From: Candidatus Deferrimicrobiaceae bacterium
GTDB taxonomy: Bacteria; Desulfobacterota; Deferrimicrobia; Deferrimicrobiales; Deferrimicrobiaceae
Direction: 5' to 3'
DNA: 64,000 bases
Assembly: GCA_036504035.1 (NCBI GenBank)
Contig: DASXVV010000006.1
Coordinates: 62,001-126,000, forward strand
In this document: positions 22,725-53,277 of the stretch, piece by piece
Position numbering within the stretch: the stretch's first letter is position 1
Layout of the letters: each line of letters opens with the position of its first letter
Program-made: the position numbers and the translations under genes
The notes under the pieces: model-generated
The model's database searches: none
What the model was told of the DNA's origin: nothing
Seen by the model: only the letters and a program-made list of their open reading frames with translations

Positions 22725-24347
22725 ATGAACGATTACCGATTTACCGCCAGCGCCGATCTCACCGCCATCCACGAAGTCGCCAAGTTGCTCGCATCCACCC
22801 GGAACCTGGAGCGCGCCCTCGGGACGACGCTGCGCACCCTCCAGAGTCTCCTCGGGTTCGACCGGGCCGCTCTCCTTTTCCCCGACCCCGCGACGCGCGA
22901 GCTCCGCATGGAGGCGAGCGTCGGCTATTCCCGCGAGGAAGCCGAACGCGCGCATTACGTCTGGGGCGAAGGGATCGTCGGCAAAACGGTCAAGACCGGA
23001 AGCCCCATCGTCATCCCCGACGTGCGCCAGGAGCCGATGTTCCTCGACAAGACAGGCGTTCACGCCGATTCTCCCGAGCCGGTCGCCTACCTCTCGGTTC
23101 CCATCAAGATCGGCAACGAGGTGCTGGGCGTTCTTACCGCCACCCGCATCGGCCGCCTGGGGACGCAGGCGCTCGAGGGCGATACGCGCACGCTGGTGAT
23201 CGTCGGCTACCTCATCGGGCAGGCGATGAAGCTGAACACCGCCTTCGAGCGGCTGCAGGAGGAGTTCCAGCGGCAGCGGCAGGAGTTCGAGAAGACCATC
23301 CGCAAGACCTACCGGATCGAGAACATCATCGGGCAGAGCAAGCGGATGCAGGAGGTGTTCGCCTCGGTCGTCAGCGTCGCGGCCTCCCGCGCCACGGTGC
23401 TGCTCCGGGGCGAGAGCGGCACGGGCAAGGAGATGATCGCCCGCGCGATCCACCTGGCGGGCAAGCGCGCCGAGCGACCGATGATCACCGTCAACTGCGC
23501 CGCGCTGCCCGAGACGCTGCTCGAGTCCGAGCTGTTCGGCCACAAAAAGGGCGCGTTCACGGGCGCGGTCGAGGAACGCAAGGGGCGTTTCGAGGAAGCC
23601 TCCGGCGGAACCATCTTCCTTGACGAGATCGGCGACATCCCGGTGCCCACGCAGGTCAAGCTGTTGCGCGTCCTCCAGGAACGCAAGTTCGAGCGGCTGG
23701 GCGAGAACCGCACGATCGCCGTCGACGTGCGCATCATCGCGGCCACCAACGCCGACCTCGAGAAGATGGTCGAGGAGGGGCGTTTCCGGGAAGACCTCTA
23801 CTACCGGCTCAACGTCATCCCGCTGTTCCTGCCGCCGCTGCGCGACCGGCGCGAGGACATCCTCCCTTTGCTCGAGCATTTCATCGAGCGCTTCAACCGG
23901 GAGCACGGGAAGAACATCTCTTTCTCGCCCGACGCCATCGAGCTGCTGCTCGACTACCGGTGGCCGGGCAACGTCCGCGAGCTCGAGAACCTCGTCGAGC
24001 GCACGGTGGTCATGGCCCGCGCCCCCGTCGTCCAGGCGGCGGATCTTCCGCGCGGGGTCCGGACCTATCGGGCCGGCACGATCCTAACGACCATTGCGCC
24101 GCCGCCCGAGGCCGCCACCGAAGCCGCGCAGGCGGGAACGGCCGCCCAGGCCCCGAAGGGCCACCCGCCCGCCTCGCGCGCCGCTTATCTGAAGGATATG
24201 GAAAAGGAAGAGTTGCGCCAGGCGCTCGACAACGCCGGCTGGGTCATCGCCCGCGCCGCGAAGCTGCTCGGCTGGACGCCGCGACAAGTGGGCTACAAGA
24301 TGAAGAAGCACGCCCTCGCCTCGCCCTGGAAAAAGCCGGGCGACTAG
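22725..24347 (+). CDS. NifA-like sigma-54 activator (GAF-AAA+-HTH)
   Basis: A 540-residue enhancer-binding protein. It has a GAF sensor (about 10-185), a coiled linker, and an AAA+ domain with Walker A GESGTGKE and the sigma-54 contact loop GAFTGA (about 276-281), WPGNVRELENL, then an Ala/Pro linker. The C-terminal helix-turn-helix, AKLLGWTPRQVGYKMKKHAL, matches the NifA type (TPRQVGY). NifA proteins bind TGT-N10-ACA. Exactly such a site, with a -24/-12 promoter, lies 2.4 kb downstream before porin-amtB-glnB, so control of ammonium uptake is likely. No nif genes are visible. NifA itself is assigned by HTH similarity only. Confidence 0.88.
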   Translation: MNDYRFTASADLTAIHEVAKLLASTRNLERALGTTLRTLQSLLGFDRAALLFPDPATRELRMEASVGYSREEAERAHYVWGEGIVGKTVKTGSPIVIPDVRQEPMFLDKTGVHADSPEPVAYLSVPIKIGNEVLGVLTATRIGRLGTQALEGDTRTLVIVGYLIGQAMKLNTAFERLQEEFQRQRQEFEKTIRKTYRIENIIGQSKRMQEVFASVVSVAASRATVLLRGESGTGKEMIARAIHLAGKRAERPMITVNCAALPETLLESELFGHKKGAFTGAVEERKGRFEEASGGTIFLDEIGDIPVPTQVKLLRVLQERKFERLGENRTIAVDVRIIAATNADLEKMVEEGRFREDLYYRLNVIPLFLPPLRDRREDILPLLEHFIERFNREHGKNISFSPDAIELLLDYRWPGNVRELENLVERTVVMARAPVVQAADLPRGVRTYRAGTILTTIAPPPEAATEAAQAGTAAQAPKGHPPASRAAYLKDMEKEELRQALDNAGWVIARAAKLLGWTPRQVGYKMKKHALASPWKKPGD

Positions 24348-43085: not shown

Positions 43086-44060
43086 TCAGGTCTGTTGGGT
43101 CTTGTCCAATGCGGCAAGGATCCCGGGGATCGCCTTGAACAGGTCGGACACCAGCCCGTAGTCGGCGACCTGGAAGATCGGCGCCTCGGGATCCTTGTTG
43201 ATCGCGACGATGGTCTTCGAATCCTTCATGCCTGCGAGGTGCTGGAGCGCCCCCGAGATGCCGAGTGCGATGTAGAGCTCGGGCGCGACGACCTTGCCCG
43301 TCTGTCCCACCTGCCGGTCGTTAGGCACCCAGCCCGCGTCGACCGCCGCCCGCGATGCGCCCACGGCCGCACCCAGCCGGTCGGCAAGCTGCTCGACCAG
43401 CGAGAATCCCTCGACCGATCCCAGGCCCCGCCCCCCCGAGACGACGACACGCGCTTCGGTCAGCTCGGGCCGGGCGGACTTCGTCTCCTTGCGGCCGACG
43501 AACACGGTCCCGTCGGATTCGACCGAGAGCGCGACCGGTACGATCGGGGCGGTCGGGCCGGACGGCGAAGCCGCATCGAACGCCGTCTGCCGTACGGTGA
43601 ACATCAAGGGGCTTCCCGTCATCAAGACGGCGGCGATCGCGTTGCCCGCGTACATCGGGCGCCGGACGCGCAATTCCCCCGCCTCGAGCGTCAGGCCGAC
43701 GATGTCGCTCGCCAGCGGCGCGTCGAGCAGCCCCGCCAGTCGCGGCATGAAATCTTTCCCGAACGTGCTCGCGGGCGTCATCACCGCGCCGTAGCCGTGT
43801 TCGCGGACGACCTGCGCGCAGGCGGTGGCGAGGGGATGCGCCAAGCCGTGCGCGAAGACAGCCGCGTCCCCGTGCAGCACGCGCCGGACGCCGCACCCCG
43901 CGGCCGTTACGGCCACCGCGGCGGCACCCTCGCCCAGCACCAGTGCGTCGATCGCACCGCCGACCAGCGCGGACAATCGCCTGGCGGCAGTGATCGCCGA
44001 CAGCGTCGACTTGCGGAACGCGCCTTCCTGGTGCTCGACGACGACCAGGATGTCGACCAT
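43086..44060 (-). CDS. etfA: Electron transfer flavoprotein alpha subunit
   Basis: A 324-residue ETF alpha subunit. The FAD-binding C-terminal domain has [14 protein letters not shown] and [27 protein letters not shown], the classical signature. With EtfB it shuttles electrons between a dehydrogenase and the quinone pool. It overlaps etfB by one base. The unusual point is location: inside a nucleotide-sugar operon with no acyl-CoA dehydrogenase nearby. Confidence 0.95.
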
Positions 44061-44818
44061 CAGCCGATCACCCGGGCTTCCTCGCGCAGCAGCCGGACCA
44101 GCTCGGCGGCATCGGCAACGATTCGCCCCCCCTTGCGCGCTCTCGGCGCCTCGAAGGAGAGAACCCGAACCTTCGGCGTCAGGTCGATCCCGAGCGTCGC
44201 GGCGTCGACGACGCGCACCTCTTTCTGCCTGGCCTTCATGATCCCGGGCAACGAGGCGTAGCGGGGCTCGTTGAGACGAAGGTCGGCCGTCACCACCGCG
44301 GGAAGCGGCAGCTCGACCGTTTCGATCCCGGCATCGGTTTCGCGGTCGACCCGGATGCGCTTCCCGTCATCGAGGAATTCGATCCGGGAGGCGAAGGTGG
44401 CCTGCGGCCACGACAACAGCGCGGCCAGCGTCTGCCCGACCTGGTTGTTGTCGTCGTCGACGGCCTGCTTGCCGAGCAGCACCAGGACCGGCGACTCCTC
44501 TTCAACCACCTTGCGGAGCAGTCCTGCGATCACCAACGCGTCGGCCGCGCCTTCGAGCCGGACGAGCACCCCCCGGTCGGCCCCCATCGCCAGCGCCGTG
44601 CGGAGCTGTGCATCGGCCGCGAGCGGCCCGACCGTGACGACGACCACCTCGGAAGTCCCCAACCGCTCCCGAATGCGCAGCGCCTCCTCGACGGCGATCT
44701 CGCAGAAAGGGTTGACGATGGTCTTGACGCCGTCGAGCACGAGTCGCAGCCCGTCGGCGGAGATCCTCACCCGCTCGTCGGGATTGGGCACCGGCTTGAT
44801 GGCGACCAGGATCTTCAC
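44060..44818 (-). CDS. etfB: Electron transfer flavoprotein beta subunit
   Basis: A 252-residue ETF beta subunit. It begins VKILVAIKPVPNPDERVRI and has the AMP-type site KQAVDDDNNQVGQTLAALL and NEPRYASLPGIMKARQKEV, as in classical group I ETF. The GTG start lies 4 bp inside the vanZ-like gene's end. It forms a heterodimer with EtfA, encoded next. Confidence 0.95.
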   Translation of the reverse strand: MKILVAIKPVPNPDERVRISADGLRLVLDGVKTIVNPFCEIAVEEALRIRERLGTSEVVVVTVGPLAADAQLRTALAMGADRGVLVRLEGAADALVIAGLLRKVVEEESPVLVLLGKQAVDDDNNQVGQTLAALLSWPQATFASRIEFLDDGKRIRVDRETDAGIETVELPLPAVVTADLRLNEPRYASLPGIMKARQKEVRVVDAATLGIDLTPKVRVLSFEAPRARKGGRIVADAAELVRLLREEARVIG

Positions 44819-46761: not shown

Positions 46762-48114
46762 TCAGTAAAGGATCGGTTCGTGGTGCTCGATCGCCTTGCG
46801 GCCGATCGAGTGGTAGAAGAAGCCGTGTTCCCGCATCTTCCGGGGATCGTAGATATTGCGGCCGTCGAAGATCACCGGGCGCTTCATCACGCTCTTCATC
46901 AGACCCAGGTCGGGCTTTCGGAACTCGTTCCACTCGGTGACGACGATGAGCGCATCGACGCCCTGCAGCGCCCCGTAGGGCGACTCGGCGTATCGGATTT
47001 TATCGCCGTAGCGTTGCCGCGCTCCCTCCATCGCCTCGGGGTCGAAGACCGTGACCTCGGCCCCTCCCGCCAGCAGCCGGTCGACGATGTAGAACACGGG
47101 CGCCTCGCGAGTGTCGTCGGTGTTGGGCTTGAAGGCAACCCCCCAGACGGCGACTTGAAGCCCCGACAGCTTCTCGTGGAAGTGCAGCTCGAATTTCCGG
47201 AAGAAACGCTTGCGCTGTTCCTGGTTGATCGTCTCGACCGCTTGCAGGATTGCCAGCGGCGCCCCGGCGTCGGACGCCGTCTTGAGCAGCGCCTTCACGT
47301 CCTTGGGCAGGCAGGAGCCGCCGTAGCCCAGGCCCGGAAACAGGAACTTCTTTCCGATGCGGGAGTCGGACCCGATCCCGTCGCGCACCTTCTCGATGTC
47401 GGCGCCCACGGCGTCGCAGAAGTTGGCCAGGTCGTTCATGTAGGAGATCTTCATCGCCAGGAAAGCGTTGGCCGCGTACTTGGTCACCTCGGCGCTCTTC
47501 ACGTCCATCACCTGCACCGGGTTGCCGGGGGGCAGGAACGGTTCATAAAGGTCGGAGAGGAGGGCGATCGACTTCGGTGAGGAGGCGCCGATCACCACCC
47601 GCTCGGGCCGGAGAAAGTCCTCGACCGCGAAGCCTTCGCGCAGGAATTCCGGATTGGAGACGACGTCGAACGCGTCCCGGCCGGCGAGATGTTGCGCGAT
47701 CGCCGCGGTCACCTTGTCGCTCGTGCCGACGGGCACCGTGCTCTTGTCGACGATCACCTTGTAGCCGGCATCCGGATTGGCCGCGAGGATCTTCCCGATG
47801 TCGTCGGCCACCTGGAGGATGTATTTCAGGTCGGCCGACCCGTCCTCGCCGGGCGGCGTCGGAAGGCAAAGGAAGACGACGTCGGATGCGAGCAGCGCGG
47901 CGGCCAGGTCGCCGCCGAATGTGATGCGCCCCCGGCGCAGGTTGCGCAGGAAGATCTCCTCGAGCCCCGGTTCGTAGATCGTCACCTCGCCCGAATTGAG
48001 CTTGCCGACGATGGCCGGGTTGTTGTCGACGCAATGGACCGTATTCCCGCGTTCGGCAAGACAGACACCGGTGACGAGCCCGACGTATCCCGTACCCACG
48101 ATGGCGATGTTCAT
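46762..48114 (-). CDS. ugd: UDP-glucose 6-dehydrogenase
   Basis: A 450-residue enzyme. It has NAD loop IAIVGTGYVGLVTGVCLAE, STVPVGTSDKV, NPEFLREGFAVEDFLRP and the active-site Cys in GYGGSCLPKDVKAL. This is the UDP-Glc/ManNAc dehydrogenase family's Ugd branch, making UDP-glucuronate for acidic polysaccharide. It is the first gene of the minus-strand operon, with an AGGAG site. A sigma-54-like element lies about 36 bp upstream. Confidence 0.95.
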   Translation of the reverse strand: MNIAIVGTGYVGLVTGVCLAERGNTVHCVDNNPAIVGKLNSGEVTIYEPGLEEIFLRNLRRGRITFGGDLAAALLASDVVFLCLPTPPGEDGSADLKYILQVADDIGKILAANPDAGYKVIVDKSTVPVGTSDKVTAAIAQHLAGRDAFDVVSNPEFLREGFAVEDFLRPERVVIGASSPKSIALLSDLYEPFLPPGNPVQVMDVKSAEVTKYAANAFLAMKISYMNDLANFCDAVGADIEKVRDGIGSDSRIGKKFLFPGLGYGGSCLPKDVKALLKTASDAGAPLAILQAVETINQEQRKRFFRKFELHFHEKLSGLQVAVWGVAFKPNTDDTREAPVFYIVDRLLAGGAEVTVFDPEAMEGARQRYGDKIRYAESPYGALQGVDALIVVTEWNEFRKPDLGLMKSVMKRPVIFDGRNIYDPRKMREHGFFYHSIGRKAIEHHEPILY

Positions 48115-48149
48115 TTCCAGTGCTCCTGATAGTCCTGTTGGAATTGACC

Positions 48150-48168
48150 GGGCGGAAACCGTACCAAT
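48150..48168 (-). promoter_or_regulatory. Sigma-54-like promoter of the ugd operon
   Basis: On the minus strand TTGGTACGGTTTCCGCC has GG and GC separated by exactly ten bases. The -24 half (TTGGTACG) equals that of the oxidase promoter; the -12 half (CCGC) is weaker than the usual TTGC. It lies about 36 bp from the ATG. Confidence 0.45.
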
Positions 48169-48278
48169 TTACCGCAAAACGGGTCGAATGGGCAGGGGTA
48201 GGTGAAACCATGCGGCCCTTCGTGAATCGAACGACAAAATTGAAACGAAGTTTTTTTTGATGCAATCCCGCCAAAGGG

Positions 48279-48317
48279 TTGGTAGTAATAATTGCAACCG
48301 AGAACCATTACCACCAA
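48279..48317. repeat. Long inverted repeat between the divergent promoters
   Basis: TTGGTAGTAAT (48279-48289) and ATTACCACCAA (48307-48317) match as an inverted repeat at 10 of 11 positions with a 17-bp spacer. It lies about 115 bp from the ugd element and about 135 bp from the oxidase promoter, normal for an enhancer of a sigma-54 activator. It differs from the NifA-type site. Confidence 0.5.
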
Positions 48318-48450
48318 AAAATGCCGGGCCGGTTTCGCAATTCCTCCATCCCCGGCTTGCAATATTTCGAATTCCATTCCCATGGGGGTGCACGTCGGAA
48401 AAGCCGACACGATAACCATTGCTATTTGCTCATGTTTTTTGGGGAGCGCC

Positions 48451-48467
48451 TTGGTACGCCCCTTGCT
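48451..48467 (+). promoter_or_regulatory. Sigma-54 (-24/-12) promoter of the multicopper oxidase
   Basis: TTGGTACGCCCCTTGCT contains GG (48453-48454), ten bases, then GC (48465-48466), with the consensus TTGC at -12. The ATG at 48527 is about 60 bp downstream, after AAGGAGG. Confidence 0.75.
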
Positions 48468-48526
48468 CCATACAGATGAACGCAGGAAACGTTAACCCGC
48501 ACCACACACACTAGAAGGAGGTAAAA

Positions 48527-51500
48527 ATGAACAGGCGAAAAATGATGCCCGTATTTTTCCTGGCATTGATCGCTGCCGTTTTCTCCTGGAGCGCGTCTCC
48601 AGGATCGGCAGCCGTCGGCCCGAACCCGGCCGTCAACTACAACGTCCCCAACTACGCCGCCAGCCCGCTCCCGACGGTCGACAACGTCGGCAACGTTGCG
48701 CCCGGCACCGGCATCCGGAAATTCATCGACTCGTTGCCGGGGCTAAACGCCGCGAACAACCTGGGGCAGAAGATCCCGGTCGCGATCGCCGACAACACCA
48801 CGTTCAATGGCTCGGACTACTACGAGATCGCGCTGGTCGACTACACCGAGAAGATGCACACCGACCTCCCCGCGACCCGACTCCGGGGATACGTCCAGCT
48901 TGAAACGCCGTTCAACGCCGGCGTCAGCGCCCACATCGCCCTGAAATATCTCGACAACACCGCCATCCTCATCGGCGGCCTCCAGGCCTATGCCGTCGAC
49001 AACGTGCACTACCTGGGCCCGCTGATCCTCGCCCAGAAGGGCCGCCCGACGCGTATCAAGTTCTACAACCTGCTGGCCAAGAGCGCCAACGGCGGCAACC
49101 TGTTCCTGCCGGTCGACACCACCTTCATGGGCGCCGGAGACGGCCCCAAGCAGATCGGCGTCGACAATACGGGCATGCCGATCTACGAACAGTACACCGA
49201 GAACCGCGCCACCCTCCACTTGCACGGCGGCAACACGCCGTGGATCAGCGACGGCACGCCCCACCAGTGGATCACCCCCGCGGGGGAAGTCACTTCCTAC
49301 ACCAAGGGCGCGAGCCAGCAGAACGTGCCCGACATGCCGCTGCCGGCCGACGGTTCCGCGACTTTCTACTACACGAACGATCAGAGCGGCCGCCTCATGT
49401 TCTACCACGACCACGCCTACGGCATGACGCGCCTCAACGTCTATGCCGGCGAGGCCGCGGGATACCTGTTACAGGATTCCACCGAAGCGGCGCTGGTCAG
49501 CTCGGGGGTCATCCCCGCCGACCAGATTCCGCTGGTCATCCAGGACAAGACGTTCGTCCCCGACAACGTGACCGCCACCGACCCGCTTTGGGACGTCGCC
49601 AAGTGGGGCGGCAAGGGCAATCTCTGGTTCCCGCACGTCTACATGCCGAACCAGGACCCGACTTCGATCACGGGCGCGAGCGACTTCGGCCGGTGGGATT
49701 ACGGCCCCTGGTTCTGGCCCGTGTTCCCCGTGGCCAACGACCTGCCGGCGCTGTCCGCCGTTCCCGAGTCGTTCATGGACACGCCGATCGTCAACGGCAC
49801 CGCCTACCCGTTCCTCGACGTGCAGCCCAAGAGCTACCGGCTGCGCATCCTGAACGCCTGCAACGACCGCATGCTTAACCTGTCGCTGTTCCAGGCCGAC
49901 AACACGATTCTCACCGGCAATGGCGTCAACAAGGAAGTCAAGATGGTTCCCGCCATGCCCGGCACCATCGGCTTCCCGGCCACCTGGCCGGTCGATGCGC
50001 GTGACGGCGGCGTCCCCGATCCGGCGCTTGCCGGTCCGTCCTGGATCCAGATCGGGTCCGAGGGCGGCTTGCTGCCCAAGGCGGCGGTCGTCCCGCCCAA
50101 CCCGACCAACTATGAGTACAACCGCCGCAACATCGTCGTGCTCAACGTCACGAACCACTCGCTCTTCATGGGTCCCGCCGAACGCGCCGACGTCATCGTC
50201 GACTTCTCCGCGTACGCCGGCAAGACGCTGATCCTCTACAACGACTCGCCCGCGCCGGTTCCCGCATCCGACCCGCGCAACGACTACTACACGGGCGACC
50301 CCGACCAGACCGCCTTCGGCGGCGCGCCGACCACGGTTCCGGGCTACGGCCCCAACACCCGCACCATCATGCAGATCCGGGTCGCCAACACGGCGCCTGC
50401 AGCCGCCTTCAACAAGGCCGCGCTCGACAACGCGCTCCCGGCCGCCTTTGCGGCGAGCCAGCCCGCGCCCCTCGTCGCGGACAACGTCTACGTGCGCATT
50501 TCCGACACCTCGCTCAACATGTCCGGCCTGCCCCAGGCGGTCGGCAGCATCCACGTCGCGGCCGGCGGCACGGGCTATACCTCCGCGCCAAAGGTCACGC
50601 TGATCGGTGGCGGCGGCACGGGCGCCGTCCTCACGGCGACCATCGCCGGCGGGGCAGTCACCGCCATCAACGTCACGAACGGCGGTTCCGGCTACGTGTC
50701 GAACCCCACCATCACCATCACGGGCGGCGGCGGCGTCGGCGCGGTGGCATCGGTCAACCTTGTGGGCTCGACCCCGATGCAGCCCAAGGCCATCCAGGAA
50801 CTGTTCGACCCGTACGGCCGCATGAACTCCACGCTGGGCGTCGAGCTTCCCTTCACGAGCGCGCTGACCCAGACCACGATTCCGCTGGGCTATATCGACC
50901 CGACCACGGAGTCGTTCAAGGACAACGAAATCCAGCTCTGGAAGATCACCCACAACGGCGTCGACACGCACGCCATCCACTTCCACCTGTTCAACGTCCA
51001 GGTGATCAACCGCGTCGGCTGGGATGGCGCGATCCGGCCGATAGACAACAACGAGCACGGATGGAAGGAAACCGTCCGGATGAACCCGCTCGAGGACATC
51101 GTCGTCGCGATGCAGGCGAAGTCGCAGACGCTGCCCTTCAAACTCCCCGACAGCGTCCGCCCCCTCGACGTGACGAAACCGCTCGGCTCCACGATGGGCT
51201 TCACGGGCGTCGATCCGCTCACGGGCAGCCCGATCACCGTCACCAACGACAACACCAACTTCGGTTGGGAATACGTCTGGCACTGCCACCTGCTGGGCCA
51301 TGAAGAAAACGACATGATGCGACCGGTCGTGCTGCAGGTCGCACCGGCCGCACCTTCGGGCCTGACGGCGGCGAGCACGACCATTCCGCCCCAGGTCACA
51401 CTTTCCTGGACCAACAACGCCACCACCCCGGCCGCTACGTCCATCACCCTTCAGCGGGCGACCGACAACGCCTTCGCGACCGGCCTGACCACCTTCACGC

Positions 51501-52510
51501 TCGCCAGCACCGCCACGGGCTACATCGACAACTCGGTCGTTCTCGGAACCTACTTCTACCGCGTCCGGGCCGAGAACGCGAAGGGCCTTTCGCCTTGGAC
51601 AGCTCCCGCCTCGGCGACCCTCGCCGTCACGCTGAACGCCAGTCCCGCGAGCCCGCAACCCCGGGGCACGCAGATCCTGTTTACGGCGGGAGGCGGCGCA
51701 TTCCAGTTCCAGTTCCGTGCGCTCCAGCCAGGTTCGTCGACCTGGGTCGTAGCCCGCGGGTACTCGACCACCACCACCTGGACCTGGAACAGCAACGGAG
51801 TGGCCCTCGGCACCTACCAGTTCCAGGTTTACGCACGGCGCGTAGGGTCGGTAGCGGCATTTGAAGCCGTGAGCCCGATCGTGCCCTACGTGATTACCGA
51901 TCCCCTCGCCGCCACCGCGGCCACCATCGGCGCCGCACCGGCGTCGCCGCAACCCGCGGGAACCTCCGTGCTCTTCACCGGCGGCGCGAGCGGAGGCCCC
52001 GGTCCCTTCCAGTTCCAGTTCCGGGCCCTCCAGCCGGGGCAATCGACCTGGGTCGTGGCCCGCGCCTACAGCACGACCAGCACCTGGAGCTGGAACAGCA
52101 CCGGGGTGCCCTTCGGGACCTACCAGTTCCAGGTCTACGCCCGACGCGTGGGTTCCACGGCCGCATTCGAGGCGGCCAGCCCCATCCTGCCCTACGTGAT
52201 CTTCGACAACCTCGCCGCGACCGGCGCCACGCTGGCCCCGACGACCGCGACAGTCACCGCAGGCACCCCCGTGGGCTTCACGGCCACCGGCAGCGGCGGA
52301 CCCGGCCCCTACCAGTACCAGTTCCTCGGCCGGGCCGTCGGATCCACCACCTGGCTCGTTGCCCGGGCCTATAGCACGGTCAACACCTTCACCTGGGCCA
52401 CCACCGGAGTCCAGCCCGGCGGGTACGAGTTCATGGTGAACGTGCGGCGGGTCGGATCGGTCGCGCCGTTCGAGGCGCAATCGACGATCAGCACCATCAC
52501 GGTCCAGTAA
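48527..52510 (+). CDS. Giant multicopper oxidase with FnIII and three tandem C-terminal repeats
   Basis: A 1327-residue secreted protein. A signal peptide (cleavage near GSA, about residue 29) leads to the oxidase part. Copper motifs: LHLHGG (about 229), MFYHDHAYG (about 291), HAIHFHLF (about 815) and [14 protein letters not shown] (about 918-931), matching the four Cu-ligand groups of cupredoxin oxidases. An insert of about 60 residues ([21 protein letters not shown] and a second copy) is rich in Gly. An FnIII-like domain follows (about 945-1035), then three 90-residue repeats ([11 protein letters not shown]...[12 protein letters not shown]). Geobacter OmpB/OmpC-like surface oxidases are the closest memory. 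It may oxidise metals (Mn, Fe, Cu) outside the cell. Confidence 0.9.
51630..52510 (+). repeat. Three tandem C-terminal protein repeats in the oxidase
   Basis: Three copies of about 90 codons lie at roughly 51630-51900, 51920-52205 and 52225-52510. Copies 1 and 2 share [31 protein letters not shown] and AAFEA; copy 3 has diverged ([19 protein letters not shown]). The order of divergence suggests recent duplication of the first two. Confidence 0.85.
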
Positions 52511-52584: not shown

Positions 52585-53277
52585 ATGAAAATGATTACGG
52601 CTATCGCCTCGGTCACCCTCGTCCTGATTTCCCGTGTCTGCCCGGCCGGAGAAGTCGTCGTTCCGCAGTCCGAGAAGGACCGGATCAACTACAGCGTCGG
52701 CTACCAGATCGGAGGAGATTTCAAGAAGCAGGGCGTGGAGATCTCGCCCGAGATGCTTATCCAGGGCATCCGGGACGCCATCGACGAAACTGCGTCCCGG
52801 ATGAGTCCAAAGGACATGCGACAGACGCTCGTGACGCTCAAGGCAAGCATTACCGCCGCCGAGCGCAAGCGGAAGGGCGGCGTTGGGGCTCCGGTCGATC
52901 CTCGGGCCGAGCAGACGTTCCTCGACCTGAACGGGAAGAAGGCCGGCGTCGTCATCCTCCCGAGCGGGCTGCAGTACAAGGTCATCCAGGAAGGGACCGG
53001 CGCGACACCGACGGCCAGCGACAACGTCACGGTCAACTACCGGGGAACGCTGGTCGCAGGCAACGATTTCTACGATTCGAAGAAGGTCGGCAAGCCGGCG
53101 GAGCTTGCCGTCGGCGCGCTGATTCCCGGCCTTCAGGAGGCGCTGACGCGGATGAAGGAAGGGGCTCTCTGGCAGATCGTCATACCCCCGAGTCTGGGAT
53201 ACCGGGAAGGGAGTCCTCTCGTAGGGAAAACGGTCATTGTCGATCTCGAACTGATTCGGGTCAACCCCGCGAAATAG
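52585..53277 (+). CDS. Periplasmic FKBP-type peptidyl-prolyl isomerase
   Basis: A 230-residue protein with a signal peptide (about residues 1-22), a Mip/FkpA-like helical N-terminal dimerisation part (INYSVGYQIGGDFKKQGVEISPEML) and a C-terminal FKBP domain (VNYRGTLVAGNDFYDS, GLQEALTRMKEGALWQIVIPPSLGY). It speeds proline isomerisation in exported proteins. Its location after the giant surface oxidase suggests help with folding of secreted proteins. The FKBP active-site aromatics are largely kept. Confidence 0.92.
   Translation: MKMITAIASVTLVLISRVCPAGEVVVPQSEKDRINYSVGYQIGGDFKKQGVEISPEMLIQGIRDAIDETASRMSPKDMRQTLVTLKASITAAERKRKGGVGAPVDPRAEQTFLDLNGKKAGVVILPSGLQYKVIQEGTGATPTASDNVTVNYRGTLVAGNDFYDSKKVGKPAELAVGALIPGLQEALTRMKEGALWQIVIPPSLGYREGSPLVGKTVIVDLELIRVNPAK

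Follow-up and report, generated by a model that had tools for sequence, protein, structure and literature searches.

How is the gene for a large secreted multicopper oxidase (MCO) of the OmpB/MofA type switched on, and is its expression tied to that of the polysaccharide genes next to it? The question is raised by a 64-kb stretch of genomic DNA from a Candidatus Deferrimicrobiaceae bacterium (the window; the genome under study, of 3.17 Mb, is denoted G000, and C and L numbers denote contigs and named loci), in which the intergenic region 48115-48526 separates ugd, on the minus strand, from an MCO gene, on the plus strand. We found no published account of how OmpB/MofA-type oxidase genes are switched on. 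A sequence-only reading of the region had proposed two divergent sigma-54 promoters and, between them, an inverted repeat at which one activator could control both operons. We consider it probable, at roughly 0.77, that the region serves to control the MCO(-FKBP) unit through sigma-54 and an NtrC-family activator acting at a tandem enhancer, with a protein encoded on contig C14 as the most likely activator. In the proposed mechanism, RNA polymerase with sigma-54 would bind at 48451-48467, and an NtrC-family response regulator occupying the enhancer at 48334-48375 would activate it; the likely regulator would be the product of C14:360914-362299, partnered by a PAS histidine kinase whose gene immediately precedes that of the regulator. 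The promoter, the enhancer, their conservation and the co-occurrence with the activator come from sequence, and from these we infer binding, activation and the identity of the activator.

The MCO gene is preceded, 76 bp before its ATG, by a perfect -24/-12 element, TTGGTACGCCCCTTGCT (48451-48467, plus strand), with GG-N10-GC within the YTGGCACGNNNNTTGCW consensus. Its relative score of 17.4 bits is the highest in the window, the runner-up (14.0) lying inside a gene; when the region was shuffled 4000 times with its dinucleotides preserved, one shuffle reached this score. In the 3.17-Mb genome, the strict pattern TGGYACGNNNNTTGC is found four times, once here, compared with two occurrences of the reversed control, and GG-N10-GC by itself is found two and three times on the two strands of the region, with 1.8 expected. 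Sigma-54 sites are present in the intergenic regions before the MCO units of the same-family genomes G002, G004 (weak), G005, G008, G009, G010 and G015 (two), and the second MCO gene of G000 is also preceded by such a site. The gene order in G004, G010 and G015 is histidine kinase, NtrC-type activator, lone receiver and then MCO, with the sigma-54 site between the activator and the receiver. G000 itself encodes RpoN, along with about 21 intact sigma-54 activators. These comparisons make sigma-54 control of the MCO gene well supported. The link is not general to all OmpB-like genes: most of the homologues outside the family lack a good site.

An activator site between the two genes, as the sequence-only reading had anticipated, is probably present, in the form of a tandem element that this reading overlooked. 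The predicted enhancer (48334-48375, minus strand), 75 bp upstream of the MCO promoter, comprises the boxes GGAATTCGAAATATTGCAAG (48375-48356) and GGGGATGGAGGAATTGCGAA (48353-48334), that is, two 20-bp boxes in the same orientation, each about GGAAaTcGAAaAATTtCcA, with a 22-bp pitch, and it was found by an unsupervised motif search upstream of MCO-unit promoters. The log-likelihood of the tandem model is 157.6 at a pitch of 21-23 and 83-98 at other pitches. A hold-out model trained on eight relatives, with the window and G008 sites left out, reaches a log-likelihood of 142.9, compared with 54.5-66.4 for ten dinucleotide-shuffled sets; in the window, it scores 48334-48375 at 34.0, with the next independent match at 14.3, and it also recovers the left-out G008 site. 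When the model from the sequences of other genomes is run over the 3.17 Mb, 48334-48375 is the sole match at E<=10 (E 0.07). When the model is built from all ten sites, the two MCO promoters are the only places in G000 with small E-values, 1.5e-5 and 2.7e-4 (both sites being in the training set), the next value being 2.1. Across 1.01 Mb of named MCO loci, there is a single match scoring at least 24, and it lies on a contig of the family (L091), equal in length to the G015 contig on which a training site is located. The distance from the element to the -24/-12 site is 74-91 bp in nearly all cases, with 75 bp in the window and 114 bp in the G000 MCO paralogue. A conserved repeated site upstream of a sigma-54 promoter, at roughly 80-150 bp, is the mark of an NtrC-type enhancer, and the tandem element fits this pattern. 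An IHF bending site between the enhancer and the promoter was considered and rejected for want of a consistent match, IHF-like sites being found in three of the ten spacers tested and not in that of the window.

The inverted repeat fares differently. The 11-bp arms TTGGTAGTAAT (48279-48289) and ATTACCACCAA (48307-48317), spanning 48279-48317, are indeed there and pair at 10 of 11 positions; a repeat as good occurs in 37 of 300 shuffles, which is not above chance, and the search for it elsewhere that had been suggested found the half-sites at no other place in the 64 kb and at none of ten related promoter loci. The repeat, neither above chance nor conserved, was thus rejected as an operator, and the tandem element takes its place as the candidate activator site.

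Which of the many activators would use this element is indicated by its phyletic distribution. A model search of 24 genomes of the family yields 14 matches at E<=0.05 in 11 genomes, and every one of these adjoins an MCO gene or a member of a single activator clade, with a sigma-54 site downstream. Four matches outside the training set (G016:C29, G019:C181, G014:C173 and G005:C12) lie by a gene of the activator clade or an MCO gene, 78-83 bp from the sigma-54 site; the sole match outside the family in the phylum sample, in G215, is beside a clade member, about 83 bp from the sigma-54 site. With membership of the clade defined as at least 59% protein identity to the C14 activator of G000, the clade is represented in 10 of the 11 element-bearing genomes of the family and in none of the remaining 13, so that these 13 lack the element and the clade alike (Fisher exact 5.6e-6, relatedness ignored).

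The sole clade member in G000 is the predicted NtrC-family response regulator at C14:360914-362299. The protein has a receiver domain, a sigma-54 AAA+ domain (PF00158 match) and a Fis-type helix-turn-helix, the domains expected of the NtrC family; it aligns over its full length to the NCBIfam ntrC model (residues 6-457), below the cut-off, and hence has no named equivalog. In a maximum-likelihood tree, it falls within a clade of 17 proteins with 100/100 support, and its nearest kin are G010_C97, G015_C20 and G019_C269, and in all three, the activator gene is directly followed by the element and, 80-82 bp from it, a sigma-54 promoter. The recognition helix NHHTFRYRRKKL is common to the C14 activator and the clade and is found in no other aligned activator of G000. 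Because of the co-occurrence, the tree relatives with an adjoining element and the shared recognition helix of the clade, the C14 protein is predicted to be, most likely, the activator of the enhancer at 48334-48375. The regulon of G000 would be small, with two detectable targets, the two OmpB-type MCO genes.

Several points weigh against this interpretation. The main weakness is that the C14 activator gene is located near neither MCO gene, and its own downstream region contains only a degenerate element (15.9). The genome G002 bears the element, but no clade member was detected in this fragmented draft, and the 24 genomes, being related, do not count as so many independent cases of co-occurrence. 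Although unique, the genome-wide match of the hold-out model has an E-value of no better than 0.07. Furthermore, the sigma-54 weight matrix approximates the published consensus, and its scores are relative.

Could the tandem element and the promoter then be chance sequences or remnants, with the MCO gene transcribed from another promoter? The simplicity of the sigma-54 consensus scan leaves some room for this, but the hold-out tests, the constant spacing and the specificity of the element (the one match of at least 24 in 1.01 Mb of other MCO loci being on a contig of the family) oppose it, and such an explanation appears very improbable. Another possibility, also improbable if somewhat less so, is that the region is used by a different activator of G000, for example PrsR, the PEP-CTERM/exopolysaccharide regulator, or the NifA of the window. 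Both are encoded in the genome: PrsR at about C13:145.1-146.5 kb (TIGR02915, 578.9 bits compared with a cut-off of 502.6) and a NifA orthologue at 22725-24347 of the window, on the plus strand (TIGR01817, 561.4 bits compared with a cut-off of 528.85), and a connection between sigma-54 and surface proteins by way of PrsR is known (PMC1569441). The region, however, contains neither TTTACA/TGTAAA, the PEP-CTERM upstream motif, nor TGT-N10-ACA, the NifA motif, so that both proteins were rejected as activators, and the tandem element tracks a clade other than those of PrsR and NifA. In G000, PrsR and the adjoining GAF histidine kinase (L144:15129-16493 and L144:16497-18482, on C13) make up the PEP-CTERM regulatory pair, which is distinct from the predicted MCO activator; the presence of NifA indicates that nitrogen-fixation control may be encoded in the window.

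A further alternative, which bears on the opening question, is that ugd, too, has a working sigma-54 promoter (48151-48167) driven by this enhancer, the MCO and polysaccharide precursors then being made together. Both of the -24/-12-like elements noted in the sequence-only reading exist, with GG-N10-GC, and the TTGGTACG that they have in common occurs in the 64 kb only at these two places. As promoters, they part ways: the MCO side is upheld by the shuffling test, whereas the ugd side is not. The ugd-side site, TTGGTACGGTTTCCGCC (48151-48167, minus strand), has the exact GG-N10-GC, and its distance of 53 bp to the ATG is typical of G000 sigma-54 sites, but its -12 part is a poor CCGC instead of TTGC; it ranks eighth in the window, and its score is reached by 197 of 4000 shuffles (5%). 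Orthologues of ugd, whole or partial, are present in 17 same-family genomes besides G000, and within 500 bp upstream of the 15 for which this region is readable, no sigma-54-like site scores above 8.0 (10.5 in the window). Among these 15 are the two that belong to the same genus, with identities of 86-88%. A sigma-54 promoter was therefore rejected as a conserved feature of ugd. What the upstream regions of the relatives do have in common is GGTAnnnT with GTTT after it, an element that could be a sigma-70 -10 box. In G000, the putative -24/-12 site overlaps this element, retained as GGTAAATT, and the conserved, -10-like TAAATT. A simple sigma-70 scan of the region detects no consensus promoter and no consensus -35, and it is from conservation only that we infer a sigma-70 promoter here.

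In favor of a bidirectional switch, the enhancer is within looping range of the ugd-side site (169 bp), and G005 provides a precedent, with one element between two divergent sigma-54 promoters, those of an FKBP-MCO operon and of an FKBP-CapD (polysaccharide) operon. Because of this arrangement in G005, a switch shared by MCO and polysaccharide genes is a reasonable idea, and such a switch appears plausible, though unproven for ugd. For ugd itself, we regard it as unlikely, if far from negligible, given the weakness of the site and its lack of conservation. Thus, the earlier suggestion of one activator for both operons has a parallel among the relatives, but the coupling of MCO to ugd is not supported; likewise, joint control of a surface oxidase and parts of the cell exterior has parallels, but the adjacency of MCO and ugd is found only in G000. 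The ugd operon would probably be driven mainly by an ancestral sigma-70-type promoter and be at most secondarily affected by the predicted activator.

The MCO gene (48527-52510, plus strand) encodes an OmpB/MofA-like secreted multicopper oxidase of 1327 amino acids, identified by homologues and copper motifs, all four of which are complete (HLHG at 231, HDH at 294, HAIHFH at 815 and the fourth at 919). Homologues are found in 80 named genome loci, with identity up to 57% and with the homology spanning the cupredoxin part; the protein is grouped with Geobacter OmpB and Leptothrix MofA on the strength of homologues, architecture and the literature (PMC5566968). The gene for an FKBP-type peptidyl-prolyl isomerase (52585-53277, plus strand) follows and is probably co-transcribed with the MCO gene. 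Such isomerase genes adjoin OmpB-like MCO genes in many genomes (including L157, L159, L167 and L169), on either side of the oxidase, and this neighbor is perhaps a dedicated folding factor for the oxidase. On the minus strand, ugd (46762-48114), for a UDP-glucose/GDP-mannose dehydrogenase, leads a nucleotide-sugar operon that extends to about 40793, in the order ugd, rmlC-like, rmlB-like, vanZ-like, an electron-transfer-flavoprotein-like pair, a second nucleotide-sugar dehydrogenase and an epimerase. This operon is kept across the family, with a varying neighbor upstream of ugd, a place that is occupied by MCO only in G000; the flavoprotein-like pair (43086-44818, minus strand) is embedded in an order conserved family-wide. 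Further near-perfect sigma-54 promoters in G000 are found at L175:6131 and 4636 (C9), L174:8008 (C6) and L150:14994 (C9), 53-67 bp before genes, and two of these precede paralogous genes beginning with MNSGDTAWILISAALVM and MQSGDTAWLLVSAALVM.

The surroundings of the element in relatives connect the oxidase with polysaccharide and secretion genes. MCO, FKBP and polysaccharide genes are near each other in G005 and G008; in the latter, the end of an MCO gene shares a strand with genes for an FKBP and a CapD-like protein, some kilobases ahead of ugd. In G015, the activator gene is followed by the element and promoter and then by genes for a receiver, the MCO, an FKBP and a type II secretion ATPase; G008 has a further copy of the element, ahead of a receiver gene and a series of type II secretion genes. 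At the activator-clade loci L158 (G015:C30) and L234 (G008:C76), a type II secretion ATPase, F protein and pseudopilins are encoded beside the lone receiver. Such loci suggest a dedicated type II secretion system for the oxidase. The type II genes beside the element fit the reported export of Geobacter OmpB by a type II system (Mehta 2006, as cited in PMC10599522). The type II genes of G000 were rejected as members of the regulon: the closest, orthologous operon (C6:226000-245900) lacks both the enhancer and a sigma-54 site.

Two known systems are close in logic. In Pseudomonas putida GB-1, MnxS1/MnxS2-MnxR control mnxG and mcoA, that is, sigma-54 control of MCO genes is exerted via a response regulator, and an rpoN mutant of a related Pseudomonas strain has lost Mn oxidation (PMC11409713, PMC11930936). 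Here, too, a response regulator would control MCO genes with sigma-54, but the bacteria and the types of oxidase differ, and IHF sites are predicted at mnxG/mcoA, unlike in the spacer of the window. The PrsK/PrsR regulon of PEP-CTERM genes, which is linked to exopolysaccharide, was described by comparison of an upstream motif and -24/-12 sites, with the regulator identified by phylogenetic profile (PMC1569441). The combination of a motif, a -24/-12 site and the matching profile of an NtrC-like regulator is the same here; the regulator is different, the PrsR of G000 being a separate protein, and the TTTACA motif is absent. OmpB of Geobacter sulfurreducens, which is required for reduction of insoluble Fe(III) oxide (PMC5566968), and MofA of Leptothrix are large secreted multicopper oxidases homologous to the one described here, but the Geobacter-group homologues that were examined yielded no tandem element of this kind, and a good sigma-54 site is missing from most of them. 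That sigma-54 is broadly connected with the bacterial exterior has been proposed previously (PMC3162934).

Sigma-54 and response-regulator control of MCO genes was thus already known; what appears to be new is this element and this activator clade, for which we found no description in the open-access literature. Tentatively, they could represent an undescribed NtrC-type regulon of one family and at least one other, in which a tandem enhancer with a 22-bp pitch controls multicopper oxidases; some members would include type II secretion genes, and in certain lineages the enhancer would act bidirectionally, on polysaccharide genes as well. This broader view should be taken as a possibility rather than an expectation. 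The OmpB/MofA-type oxidases are proposed cell-surface metal-redox enzymes, and with a named promoter, enhancer and candidate activator, the control of such a gene becomes testable. The neighbors in the relatives, namely the receiver, type II secretion, FKBP and CapD genes, suggest that the making, folding and export of the enzyme may be under joint control.
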